From Erythrobasidium yunnanense (lineage: Eukaryota > Basidiomycota > Cystobasidiomycetes > Erythrobasidiales > Erythrobasidiaceae), in NCBI GenBank assembly GCA_001600175.1, contig BCJC01000002.1, positions 2,081,111-2,145,110 on the forward strand: 64,000 bases of DNA. Reading direction: 5' to 3'. The notes under the pieces were generated by a model. The model was not told the DNA's origin and did no database searches. It saw only the letters and a list, made by a program, of their open reading frames with translations. Below, in pieces: positions 16,929 to 43,464 of this stretch. The first letter of the stretch is position 1. Every line of letters starts with the position of its first letter. A program made the translations under genes and the position numbers.

Positions 16929-17588
16929 GATGTTGTTCGGATGCTGGAAAGGTAACGAATCAAGGCGACGTGTCCCGCAAGATTACACAACGCCTCCTGG
17001 CATCTCACAGTTGTTCGGCTTTGGTGTCTATACTTGCTCTGCTCAACAACAACGACGCTACAACCTCACTCGCCCTGCCCGCCGACTCAGTTCAAACTAT
17101 ATGATGTTATTTCCCGAATCCTGTTGCATCCAGTCTCACGATCTCAAGCCTGGTATGCCATAGCACTCTCTTTCAACCCATGCCGCCATATCTACCTCCC
17201 TGACACCAATCAATTCAACCGTAGTTTCCGCTCAGACAGACTTTCGGGCAGAACTTCTGACGTGTTCTGCCTTCGCTGATTCTGCCGCCATGATACCGCA
17301 TGGAGTTTCTTCACTTGCTATGAGAGTCTTGGCTGCAATTCTCCCACCAGGGTTCGCACGCCTTGAAAGGATTGCTGCGAGTATGGTGTCGTTGATAGAA
17401 AGGGGCAGCACAACCTTTCTCCCTCCCAGACTATAAAGCAGAGTCCTCTGCTGCCTCTTGGCTTTTGCTCTTGCCATCGCAAAGCTTGCTCAGACACTGG
17501 TGAGCGCGTTTTGGCTCGAAGGACAGGAGTCTGCTGACACGTCCTCCCATACCTCAATCCTCGCGCGCTTGATTACCGCAGTTCTACG
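16929..17588. promoter_or_regulatory. Divergent intergenic region SEC13 / family copy A
   Basis: About 660 nt between divergent genes. The right part looks transcribed: a GTGAGC donor at 17500 and a CCGCAG acceptor at 17580 would remove an 81 nt intron from the 5' leader of the gene at 17589. The sequence just before the donor (TGGCTTTTGCTCTTGCCATC...CACTG) resembles the leader of the tandem copy at 18737-18780. No other gene seen. Confidence 0.35.
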
Positions 17589-18592
17589 ATGTCAACATAC
17601 AACTCCTTCGACTCCAAGTCCTCCGCAACCAATTCCCGTCGCTTGAGCAAAGCGTCCAGCGTGTCCTCCAACGCTTCAAGCGCTTCAAGCCAGTCTAGCG
17701 TCTCCACAAGGTCATCTCTCAGTTCTGGAGCCTCCATAGGCTCCTGGGATCCGGTACACGCCAAGGATGTAGATCGCAAATGCATATTGGTCAACGGTCG
17801 AATTGAACATGTCGAGCGTGAGTCATGGCTTGCTTATATTATCCGCTGACTTCCTGACTCTATGGGCGTCTGGCCAGATTGGTACGACAATGCTTCTACA
17901 AAGCCCCTGCCTGGTCAACACCGTCTGCGCGACGATAATGGAAAGGTTATCACCGCAGTCGAAGCAGCCGCAGATCGCGAGCTCAAGGAGACCTTGAGAT
18001 TCACTGGTCTGCTTGGCAAAAGGAAGAGAATGGCCTTCCAGACCGTCAAGAATGCTGTAGAAACCGTCCCTCTACGCACACGCGAAATCGACACGCTTTC
18101 TGGCCAAACAGGACCATGGAAGACATCCTCTATCCAAGTAGATCGTGTCCCAGATTACTCTGCAGCCACCGAGAACGACGATCGACTCATAGCAGACCGG
18201 AAGAGGCATCTCATGAGGCCTAAGGCTATCATTGTAGACGGCAAGAAAGTAAAGCCCTCAAGTAAGTCTACCCCAAAGATTAAGTGTTGCAATTGACAAC
18301 TGATACGTGTACTGTGCCTCGGAAAGGGTACTACGAGAACGTATGGGACGACCGACCATCTGTCGAACCATTTCCTGGGCAAGCTGGAATATACTGCCAG
18401 GTAGGCAACTATGCACAAGACGCAGCAAAATGGGAGATGCGTACCAAGAAGAAGTTGCAGCGCTACGTTGGCTACCAAAAGAAGGGAGACATGAAAATGC
18501 GATCTTTCAGAACTGCTTCGTTCGATAACGAAATGGGTGGAGTTGGCAAGCCTGTTAATTTCGTGAAGGACAAGCCGAAGGATAAGATGTAA
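17589..18592 (+). CDS. Unrecognised two-module family, copy A
   Basis: Three exons (17589-17817, 17878-18261, 18327-18592) give 292 aa. Exon 1 codes a Ser-rich, low-complexity N-terminus ending in GASIGSW and a CILVNGRIEHVE strand. Exon 2 opens with HWYDNASTKPLPGQHRLRDD and goes on to LKETLRFTGLLGKRKRMAF. Exon 3 opens with YYENVWDDRPSVEPFPGQAG and goes on to LQRYVGYQKKGDMKMRSFRT, then GGVGKPVNF. The two exons look like copies of one module of about 60 residues. No signal peptide, membrane segment or known domain is visible; the product is basic and probably soluble. Copies B and C share the exon layout. Function unknown. Confidence 0.8.
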
Positions 18593-18862
18593 GCCGTTGT
18601 GACGAGACTGCACCCCTGCAGTCACGACTTGTGAAAGAGATTCGCCCTGAAAGGACTTGTTCTGAAAGGACCTGCTCTAAAGGGGTAGAGCTGAACGGGA
18701 CTTGCAGGCTAGGACTATCAAGCATGCCTCTCTAGTGCATCTTGGCTCTTGCTCTCTCAGAGATAAAGCAATACTGGTGAGTTCACTTTGATTCACAGCC
18801 AGAATAGTGCTGATGACCTCTGCCCTCCCTGCGACCGATCGCCAGTCTGCAGCTCCTGCACT
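18593..18862. promoter_or_regulatory. Spacer between tandem copies A and B
   Basis: About 270 nt. It contains a short run of near-repeats of GAAAGGAC / CTAAAGG (18648-18700) and then a leader resembling that of copy A, with ACTG|GTGAGT at 18775-18784 and a TCTGCAG at about 18850. A 5'-leader intron in the same place as in copy A is likely. Confidence 0.35.
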
Positions 18863-19856
18863 ATGCTTCGCTTGTCAACTACCAAGTCGTTCGACCGCGA
18901 GTCCTCCCTGCATGGTTCACGACGCTCAAGCCAGACTTCCTCCAAAGCTTCCAGCGTCTTGAGTCGGTCCACCGGCTCGACGACCTCATCTTCCAGTTCA
19001 GGAGCATCCATTGGCTCCTGGGATCAAAGAGGTGCCAACGACGTACATCGTGGGTACATTTTGATCAACGATAAATTCGAGACAGTGTCTGGTGAGCTGG
19101 TGCAATGGTCGCTCGCGGCCGCCATGGACGCTGAGAAATGTCGATTCACGTAGATTGGTACGACAATGCCTCGATCAAGCCTCTGCCCGGCCAGCACCCT
19201 CTACGCGATGACAATGGAAACGTCATCACCGCAGTCGAAGCAGCTAAAGACCGCAAGCTCAAAGAGACTCTAAAATTCACTGGTCTGACTGGCAGGAACA
19301 AGAGAATGACGTTTGTTACCGTCAAAAATGCAGTACAGACCCAGCCTCTGCGCGTACAGGCAATCGACCCTATCACTGGCCAACGAGAACCATGGGAGGA
19401 ATCTTCCATCCAAAGACACTGTATTCCAGACTATTCTGCAGCTACCGAGAAAGACGAGATGATCATCGCCCACCGCAAACGGCATCTGAAAGGATCCAAA
19501 TCCATCATTATCGACGGCGAAAAGGTGAAGCCTCACAGTAAATTTCCTACAACATCAGGGTCGCACTCGGCAACTAACCTCTGTACATCATTTACTCAGA
19601 ATACTACGAGAATGTAAACCGCGATAATCATCCGTCCGTGGAACCATTCCCTGGACAGGATGAAATATATAGCTGGGCAGGGAATTATGCCGAAGTTGAA
19701 GCAGACCGGGAGAAGCGTTACAAGGAGAGATTGCAACGCTACGTCGGTTATCAAAAGAAGGGGAACATGACAATGCGGTCTTTCAGGACTGCTTCGTACG
19801 ACGACGCGATGGGTGGAGTCGGCAAGCCTGTCAACTTCATGCTGGATAAGAAATGA
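18863..19856 (+). CDS. Unrecognised two-module family, copy B
   Basis: Tandem paralogue of the gene at 17589. Exons 18863-19091, 19154-19537 and 19600-19856 give 289 aa. Exons 1 and 2 have exactly the same lengths as in copy A (229 and 384 nt) and both introns are phase 1. ATG 18863 (MLRLSTTKSFDRESS) was preferred over an earlier open reading because it gives this exon length. Module 1 begins DWYDNASIKPLPGQHPLRDD. Module 2 begins KYYENVNRDNHPSVEPFPGQ and includes GNYAE, LQRYVGYQKKGNMTMRSFRT and GGVGKPVNFMLDKK. The modules are closer to copy A than to copy C, consistent with a recent local duplication. The Ser/Thr-rich N-terminus diverges most. Function unknown. Confidence 0.8.
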
Positions 19857-40821: not shown

Positions 40822-41871
40822 TCATTTGGAAGCGTGTAGGAAATTGATGGGTTTGGCTGACTTTCCGCTCGTCTCGCCAGACCCGCTCATGTTGCCATCG
40901 TACGAGCCACTTCTGAAAGCCCTGTAGGTGTTTCCCCCAGATTTTTCATGACCCACATAAGTCTTCAGTCTTGCTTTCAGGACCTTATCATTCTCAGCAA
41001 CATGCTCGGAATAGTTGCCTGCCCACATTGAGACTCCCCTTTGGCCTGGAAGAGGCAGGACGTTGTTGGGTCTCCCGCTGACCATGTTCTCGTACCAACC
41101 TGTGAAACAGATCTAGTAGTATAAGTTGCGTCTGCCTCACCATTATGGATGTTGGCACGTACTGGAAGGTCTCCATGGTCTGCCATTCAAGATGATCTTT
41201 TGAGGTCTGGTAAACTCTGCACAATTGCTTTAGCATCGGTCATCACGGTCTATGGGCTTGCAATATCAGGAGACTTGCCAGAGGGTTTTGCTTTGTCTTT
41301 TCTTAACTGTCCTGCCTGTTTTTTCATGATCGATGCGTGGCTATCGGGTCCTGCAGAAAAATCTGGGATAAAATGTGCTTGCATGTCCGTATGATGCGGA
41401 CGAGAAGCTTTATCGATGGTCTCGAAAGTCAATCTCTTTTTCTTGCCAGTCACGCCAATGTACTTGAGCTTTTCCTTGAGTCGGCGATCGTCTGCTGCTA
41501 GCCATGCGGTTTTGATTTGCCCATTGATCAAGCGCAGAGGATGTTGACCAGGTAGAGGCTTCGTCGAGGCGTTGTCGTAATACTCTGTCAAACTCGAATG
41601 TTTAGTGCTTAAGCTTGCAGCAGCCTGGTCTCGACTCACGAGGGACACGCTCGAGGTGGTCATTGACCAGGATTTGATTCTGATCGACAGTCTGGATGTC
41701 ACCCAGCAACTCCCATGAGCCGACCGATGCTCCAGAGCTACTTGAGGAGCTGCTGGAAGCACTGGAAAGGCTTGAGGCCCTCGAAGACATGCTCGATGCC
41801 CTGCTTTTGCGTTGTTGGCTAGTTGCGAGCGACTTGGTATGCATCGAACTGCTTGGTGGCTTGCGGTACAT
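40822..41871 (-). CDS. Unrecognised two-module family, copy C (dispersed)
   Basis: Third member, about 21 kb from copies A and B and inverted. Exons 41640-41871, 41279-41584 and 40822-41099 total 816 nt, or 271 aa. Exon 1 (232 nt) is Ser-rich with GASVGSW and QILVNDHLERVP. Exon 2 starts QYYDNASTKPLPGQHPLRLI and includes LKEKLKYIGVTGKKKRLTF. Exon 3 starts GWYENMVSGRPNNVLPLPGQ and includes MWAGNYSE and LKTYVGHEKSGGNTYRAFRS, ending INFLHASK. The second intron (41100-41278, 179 nt) only keeps frame if it uses a GC donor (GCAAGT) with a CACAG acceptor. The A/B phase-1 position is then reproduced exactly. An earlier in-frame ATG (41914-41916) is possible. Function unknown. Confidence 0.75.
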
Positions 41872-42735
41872 ACGGTGAGCTAGTAGAGCAGGTTCTATGG
41901 TCTGCGGAGCATACATCAGCTAGCTCTTATATGTAGACTCGCTGCCCAACCTAATAGACTTGCTGCGATAAGTTGAAAGCCAAAAGACAGCGGAGAGGCT
42001 GGCTTTATAAGCCTACTCCGGAGAAAGGGAAGCTTTGCCCTCCATAGCGGGCTGTACATGCAGGGTACCATTGAAACTGCGGATAGGGACCGTAGACTTT
42101 GACTTGGTAGTGATGTTTAGCAAGGCCCCACCCAAGACAATGACGCTCGATGTAAAGCATGGGATTGGCAGCCAGGAGAATCTGCATTTGGCTATCTTCA
42201 AGGCGGCAGCAACGAGATAGGCCGCAAGGAAGGAGAGGGTAATGCTGTATGTGATTAGATGTAAGCAGACACCAGTTCGGACTTAGCCATGCGCTGTTCC
42301 CCGCACGAGCGGTAAGGATCGTGAAGTCATTATGCGTTGATTTTACGAAGGTAGAGGGAGGATGTGATTCGGGGTTAGCTCCTCATCAGATATCATCAAT
42401 CTTGCAAACGCCTCAACAACGGACCCAGACAAGGTCGCCCTCCCAGATTCCGATGCAAACCATCTCGGAAGGGTCCACACTGAATTTTCGCTTCGACGTT
42501 TCTGAGGTGCTGTCATGAACGTTCATGATGCTTTCGCTTATCTCTAAGTGTTCACGATGGCCATCAAAGCTATCAAGAAATGACCGACTGAATCGCCGTC
42601 ACCCAAGCTAGCTTGTCCAGCACTGCCCTACGTCATTCATGATCATCGTCCGAGCCAAGCCCTTGTCGAAAGTTCAGTCGCAGGATTGCAGGTTGCTTCT
42701 CCTTCAATCAGTCCAATCCATATACACTATACATA
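41872..42735. promoter_or_regulatory. Divergent intergenic region copy C / RCR-like gene
   Basis: 864 nt between divergent genes. Short open frames occur, but none has splice or homology support. It presumably holds two promoters; the leader of copy C may contain a small intron ending CTCCGCAG near 41905. Nothing else recognised. Confidence 0.3.
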
Positions 42736-43464
42736 ATGTTGACGACAAGAAACACACTCGCGCTCGTATTGCTCGCTGCGTCGTTCGTGCAGTCCGCAGA
42801 GGCCAGACGGTGAGCACCTCTTTCCAAGCTTGGCAGATTGTAGCAGCGACTAACTTGTCACCATTGTTCTCAGATGCTACTATGACCGGTACATCTAGCC
42901 TTTCTACCAGCTTGAACCAGCTTGAACGAGGAAAACCCAAACTAACATGACATCCCGATGACGCAGATTCGGAAGACGCAGATGTACAGGCTGGGCAGGC
43001 GGCCTCATCGGAGGAGTGATTGCAGCTATCGTGCTACCACTGCTGTTCCTGCTCCTCCTCTGCATGGTCTGCTTCAGAAGACGCCGCTCAAGAAGAGCCG
43101 CGACTAACATCGAGACTGGCCCAGCGTGCGTTAACATTTACTCGGATTACATGAGAAGCCCAGTATTAACATTTGAATGAACTGCAGCATGCAACAGTAC
43201 CCACAGACACAGCCTGGATACGGCTACCAGCCCGACCAATCCCAGCAGTATGCTTACGGTCAGCCTCAACAGCAAGGTTACGGTCAACAAGGATATGGCC
43301 AACAGCAGGAGTATGGTCAGCAGCAGCAGCAGTATGCTCCACCCACCTCGCCTCCTCCCGTACCTGCATACGAAGGGAACAACGGTGGAAATGCCTCGTT
43401 TGCACCTCCTCCTGGTCCTCCTCCTCAAGCTGCTGGCCAATACGGTCACACTGCCGCCAAGTAA
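42736..43464 (+). CDS. RCR-like single-pass membrane protein (Congo red resistance family)
   Basis: Exons 42736-42809, 42874-42888, 42967-43125 and 43188-43464 join to 174 aa. It has a signal peptide (MLTTRNTLALVLLAASFVQS), a short Cys-bounded lumenal stretch CYYDRFGRRRC, and one membrane helix GGVIAAIVLPLLFLLLLCMV. After CFRRRRSRR comes a long Gln/Tyr/Pro-rich cytosolic tail with repeated QQGYG units and proline runs (PPTSPPPVP). This layout is that of the RCR family. The yeast Rcr1/Rcr2 proteins act in the secretory and endosomal system and influence chitin deposition and plasma-membrane protein turnover through PY-type ligase binding. The second exon is only 15 nt. The family call rests on architecture and the CYYDR...C core. 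Confidence 0.72.

Follow-up and report, generated by a model that had tools for sequence, protein, structure and literature searches.

Three clustered fungal paralogues predicted to share an exon-duplicated module and a common core promoter

Analysis of the window, i.e. the whole 64-kb stretch of DNA under study (C2:2081111-2145110; GC content 51%) in a genome of 20.9 Mb and 10 contigs, indicates that genes A, B, and C are three neighbouring paralogues that make up a genuine and conserved fungal gene family, a conclusion that is well supported. The best explanation for the data as a whole, to which we assign about even chances, is a constrained three-paralogue family with exon-duplicated modules, a common promoter, and a binding function inside the cell. 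The statements on the family, the duplication, and the promoter are much firmer than the one on the binding mechanism. The gene models, which were predicted from the genomic sequence, comprise the following features:

17589-18592, plus strand: gene A, 292 aa; exons 17589-17817, 17878-18261, and 18327-18592
17878..18261, plus strand: exon 2 of gene A, encoding the core of module 1 (WYDN...PLPGQ...FTG..GKRKR), the linker, and the start of module 2 (IIVDGKKV)
18327..18592, plus strand: exon 3 of gene A, encoding the core of module 2 (YYEN...PFPGQ...YVGYQKKG) and then the C-terminus
18863-19856, plus strand: gene B, 289 aa; exons 18863-19091, 19154-19537, and 19600-19856
40822-41844, minus strand: gene C, 280 aa; exons 41844-41640, 41584-41279, 41216-41163, and 41099-40822

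A previous sequence-only reading of this DNA had described three predicted proteins with a Ser-rich N-terminus and two modules each, and the models bear this out at the lengths given here. The frame of gene A is open once its two introns (60 and 65 nt, both GT-AG) are spliced out; its exon 2 is bordered by a phase-1 intron on either side, and P0001, one of the homologous fragments introduced below, carries a homologous stretch. The two introns of gene B, 62 nt each, correspond to those of gene A in position and phase. Gene C, for which the alternative starts 41871 or 41916 are possible, contains introns of 55, 62 (GC-AG), and 63 nt; compared to A and B, it has one additional intron in the stretch between the two shared introns, likewise in phase 1. 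Taken together, all seven introns (55-65 nt) are in phase 1 and six of them are found at matching places, the seventh being the extra one of gene C. The donor of intron 2 in gene C is GC, and fragment P0003 ends in a similar read-through (GKSPDNATT vs. GKSPDIASP), which argues that this unusual donor has been kept. As the exon models are sequence predictions, the open frames and motifs could in principle be an artefact, arising by chance or reflecting pseudogenes. However, this is barely credible in view of the matching intron places, the three frames that are free of stops after splicing, and the selection and the homologues elsewhere that are described below.

The repeat unit begins with I[IL][VIL][ND][GD], followed by seven residues and then [WY]Y[DE]N, and this 12-residue spacing is present in all six modules. 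The unit continues with a loop that differs in length between copies, P[LF]PGQ, a run of charged residues, an aromatic-x-G motif, a basic stretch, and F. The [WY]Y[DE]N and P[LF]PGQ motifs by which the module had been recognized are thus present, but the unit starts earlier than the motif with which the sequence-only reading let it open. Likewise, the reported basic cluster holds as a basic stretch, but not as a fixed set of residues, since it reads GKRKR in A, GRNKR in B, GKKKR in C and P0003, GRKNR in P0002, and GKDSKKR in P0001.

When modules 1 and 2 were aligned across the proteins and compared to shuffled sequences, the real alignment was reached by 0/2000 shuffles in eight of nine pairings and by 1/2000 in the remaining one. 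Comparison of the two module profiles yielded an E-value of 0.0005 at a probability of 31.7%, and plain tblastn gave only E 0.47-3.6; judged from the sequence alone, the homology of the modules is moderately supported. The intron position is the stronger evidence of a module duplication, as in 6/6 modules the codon immediately 5′ of [WY]Y[DE]N is interrupted by a phase-1 intron. Together with the alignments above the shuffled level, this position indicates that one module originated when a phase 1-1 exon was duplicated. Since the A/B exon between both phase-1 introns is symmetric (1-1), a tandem duplication would be possible with the frame unbroken, and we regard this origin of one module as well supported.

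The predicted proteins A and B are 66% identical, and A and C 45%. Using the Nei-Gojobori method, we obtained dN 0.238 and dS 1.09 for A-B, dN 0.488 and dS 2.02 for A-C, and dN 0.507 and dS 1.70 for B-C, with dS near saturation in the latter two pairs. The dN/dS of about 0.22 for A-B indicates that purifying selection acts on this gene as a whole, with a weaker constraint in the Ser-rich tail (0.42/0.77 over 43 codons). The family had been suspected to be expanded elsewhere in the genome, which we did not observe: in exon searches of the own genome, where match numbers for large families are to be read as minimum values, 9/9 matches at E<=10 with B as query, 3/3 with P0002, and 10/10 with C fell on A, B, and C. 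These results argue that the three genes are a local cluster of paralogues and no expanded family.

Outside this genome, a search of 5.8 billion proteins yielded 2 matches with the full alignment, 3 with exon 2 (two of them already found with the full alignment), and 1 with exon 3, although absence from this set says little, because it holds few spliced eukaryotic proteins and the search is word-based. In total, four homologous fragments, P0001-P0004, were recovered, which share the source label 'lgn' and carry no annotation; conservation outside this genome is hence present. P0001 and P0002 are A/B-like, and P0003 and P0004 are C-like; the latter two, each located on a 1915-base contig, may be one gene. 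All are of exon length only and have either module 1 (P0001, P0002, and P0003) or module 2 (P0004) in common with the cluster, and, as judged by eye, their frames depart from the conservation exactly where the cluster genes have their introns. In trimmed exon 2, compared among six sequences, the identity amounts to 79% for P0001-A, 66% for P0002-A, and 79% for P0003-C, as opposed to 52% for A-C; P0004 lacks exon 2 and hence lies outside this comparison. The corresponding tree groups C with P0003 (support 1.00) and A with P0001 (0.71), with P0002 and B not firmly placed. Since no members besides A, B, and C were found in the own genome, the four fragments would come from other genomes. The presence of both types there suggests that the separation of A/B from C predates the split from the organism of P0003, and the A/B-C split therefore appears to be old.

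The few homologues retrieved from 5.8 billion proteins would also be expected for young, lineage-specific genes that emerged from non-coding DNA, were duplicated later, and lack a settled function. We consider this improbable, however, given the A-B dN/dS, the intron places and the promoter kept from A/B to C despite near-saturated synonymous sites, and the occurrence of both the A/B and the C type outside this genome, which speak for an old, constrained family. Orphan fungal gene families are generally short, devoid of known domains, and present as clustered paralogues with few relatives found. In these respects A, B, and C resemble them, whereas the long-term constraint, the readable history of exon duplication, and the core promoter in common set them apart. 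They would represent a clean, small case of orphan family growth by exon duplication within a gene and, subsequently, gene duplication.

Upstream of the three genes we identified the following candidate core promoters:

17432..17463, plus strand: core promoter of gene A, TATAAAGC ... TTGGCT
18716..18747, plus strand: core promoter of gene B, TATCAAGC ... TTGGCT
41978..42009, minus strand: core promoter of gene C, TATAAAGC ... TTGGCT

They are part of an ungapped 33-bp block with TTGGCT at its end, which comprises one base more on the 5′ side than the 32-position promoter pattern and is identical in the three genes in 19 of 33 columns. When the upstream sequences of 400, 271, and 400 nt were shuffled 20 times in two-base blocks, only 11-13 columns were identical, with the scan restricted to A-B pairs with >=17/33 matches in real and shuffled sets alike. 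It lies 5′ of the ATG selected for each gene, at a distance of 157, 147, and 165 nt from its start and of 126, 116, and 134 nt from its end for A, B, and C, respectively. Moreover, when the A region was compared to the B region by blastn, this block was the single match upstream of the coding starts below E 0.001 (17429-17471 vs. 18713-18755, 77%, E 1.7e-4); the core promoter was kept while the other upstream DNA drifted. The 32-position pattern, which was derived from the A, B, and C sites themselves, occurs with <=3 mismatches at 3 places in 20.9 Mb, namely at these genes and at no other, and at 0 places for the reversed control. The looser pattern TATAAAGC-N14-22-TTGGCT was found at 4 places (A, C, L023, and L024) vs. 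1 for the reversed control; gene B has TATC, its TATA box reading TATCAA. In the interval between core promoter and ATG, we also noted by eye possible 5′-UTR introns at 17500-17581 (A) and 18777-18852 (B), both with a CTG/GTGAG donor.

That the block is retained despite the near-saturated synonymous sites between A/B and C suggests that the core promoter is under selection and that the genes are regulated in common. As the promoter in common is of the TATA type, A, B, and C are likely, with fair confidence, to be induced together under one condition. This would provide an experimental handle, since a condition that switches on all three genes may lead to their function.

In line with the earlier reading, in which no known domain was recognized, Pfam-A yielded no family at E<=10 for any of the three full proteins. 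With single exons, for which every member except P0003 was scanned, PcfJ was obtained in 1/5 members (E 0.1) and UvsW_N and ABC_tran_Xtn in 1/4 members each (E 0.13 and 0.15), all at chance level. None of the PDB chains matched the three sequence profiles significantly (best E 0.042 for 7zgn, 0.45 for 2nch, and 0.33 for 9e6q), and a text search of the literature for 'PLPGQ' revealed no fungal occurrence, other hits being judged by title. AlphaFold2 predictions, made on single exons and not on the spliced proteins, reached a mean pLDDT of 53 for exon 2 (5 sequences) and 48 for exon 3 (8 sequences), which is too poor for a fold search. Both models were unusable and lend no support to the ideas on fold and ligand.

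The module could nevertheless belong to a known domain family, as a member that evolves fast and lies beyond profile recognition with few sequences; the protein would then do the job of that family. In favour of this notion, the profiles are thin (7 sequences at hand, with P0003 and P0004 maybe one gene; Neff 1.5), the low-confidence model of exon 2 shows a mixed order of helix and strand, and 7zgn, an unrelated-looking chain, weakly matched two profiles (E 0.042 and 0.53). The Pfam and PDB results argue against it, and we consider it possible but lean towards doubt. Within the searches made, which test the claim in part, the two-module family appears to be undescribed and of a common kind. 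A further-reaching proposal holds that the module is a previously undescribed fold, invented in one lineage, doubled as an exon, and present in three co-induced genes that serve a lineage-specific intracellular response; this we regard as speculative and decidedly unlikely.

That the proteins are hydrophilic and basic is well supported by their predicted composition, with pI values of 9.84, 9.55, and 10.1 and net charges of +18, +11, and +19 for A, B, and C, respectively. That no membrane helix had been recognized is corroborated, as no membrane-length hydrophobic stretch occurs in A, B, or C (highest 19-residue hydropathy 0.28). By hydropathy, their N-termini likewise contain no stretch resembling a signal peptide, in agreement with the earlier reading: the highest 9-residue means in the first 30 residues are 0.21, -0.11, and -0.11. 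The N-terminus is Ser-rich, and presumably disordered and phosphorylatable.

Small size, Ser-richness, clustering, and few relatives, all seen in A, B, and C, are common features of effectors, and the proteins could accordingly be effectors or otherwise secreted by an unconventional route of release. This reading is highly improbable, however, when the lack of a signal peptide-like stretch, the cysteine counts of 2, 1, and 0, and the gene-wide purifying selection are considered. Moreover, the neighbours with a Pfam match (six of nine stretches scanned: WD40, Cpn60_TCP1, EXOC6_Sec15_N, tRNA-synt_1, Helicase_C, and Nup54) include several that appear to be of housekeeping type.

We read A, B, and C as a candidate lineage-restricted, probably co-regulated family of intracellular proteins. 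In the mechanism that we consider the most likely one, albeit weak and rather unlikely to hold as a whole, a condition would switch on the three genes via their common promoter, and the products would act inside the cell. Each module would be a small binding unit, in which an anionic ligand such as nucleic acid or a phosphorylated protein is bound by the [WY]Y[DE]N/PLPGQ loop and the basic stretch after it. Two modules could allow bivalent binding, which the Ser-rich tail might regulate. Speaking against this, the basic charge fits many roles, and the basic cluster varies among the members.

The fungal origin proposed before is supported by the spliced genes and by an HSP60 exon in the window; the chains closest to this exon bear the names 'glomalin' and 'Mitochondrial heat shock protein 60-like protein', entries that we take to be fungal. 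Beyond the C promoter, the plus strand of the window (42736-43464) seems by eye to hold a spliced gene whose product resembles a small membrane protein of the single-pass type, with a signal peptide and a tail rich in Gln, Pro, and Tyr. Rfam yielded 0 matches in the 64-kb window. With two probes (5.8S and 28S), a full rDNA unit was not found in the genome; the 28S probe gave one match of 73%, where Rfam reports nothing at E<=0.01. Elsewhere (L019 3139-3263, minus strand; G000:C1 near 4391700), the 5.8S probe recovered a single partial 5.8S rRNA that covers model positions 40-154 of 154 and runs into an ITS2-like start, which has a basidiomycete look. This stray rDNA fragment adjoins an HSP70-like gene, named by eye.
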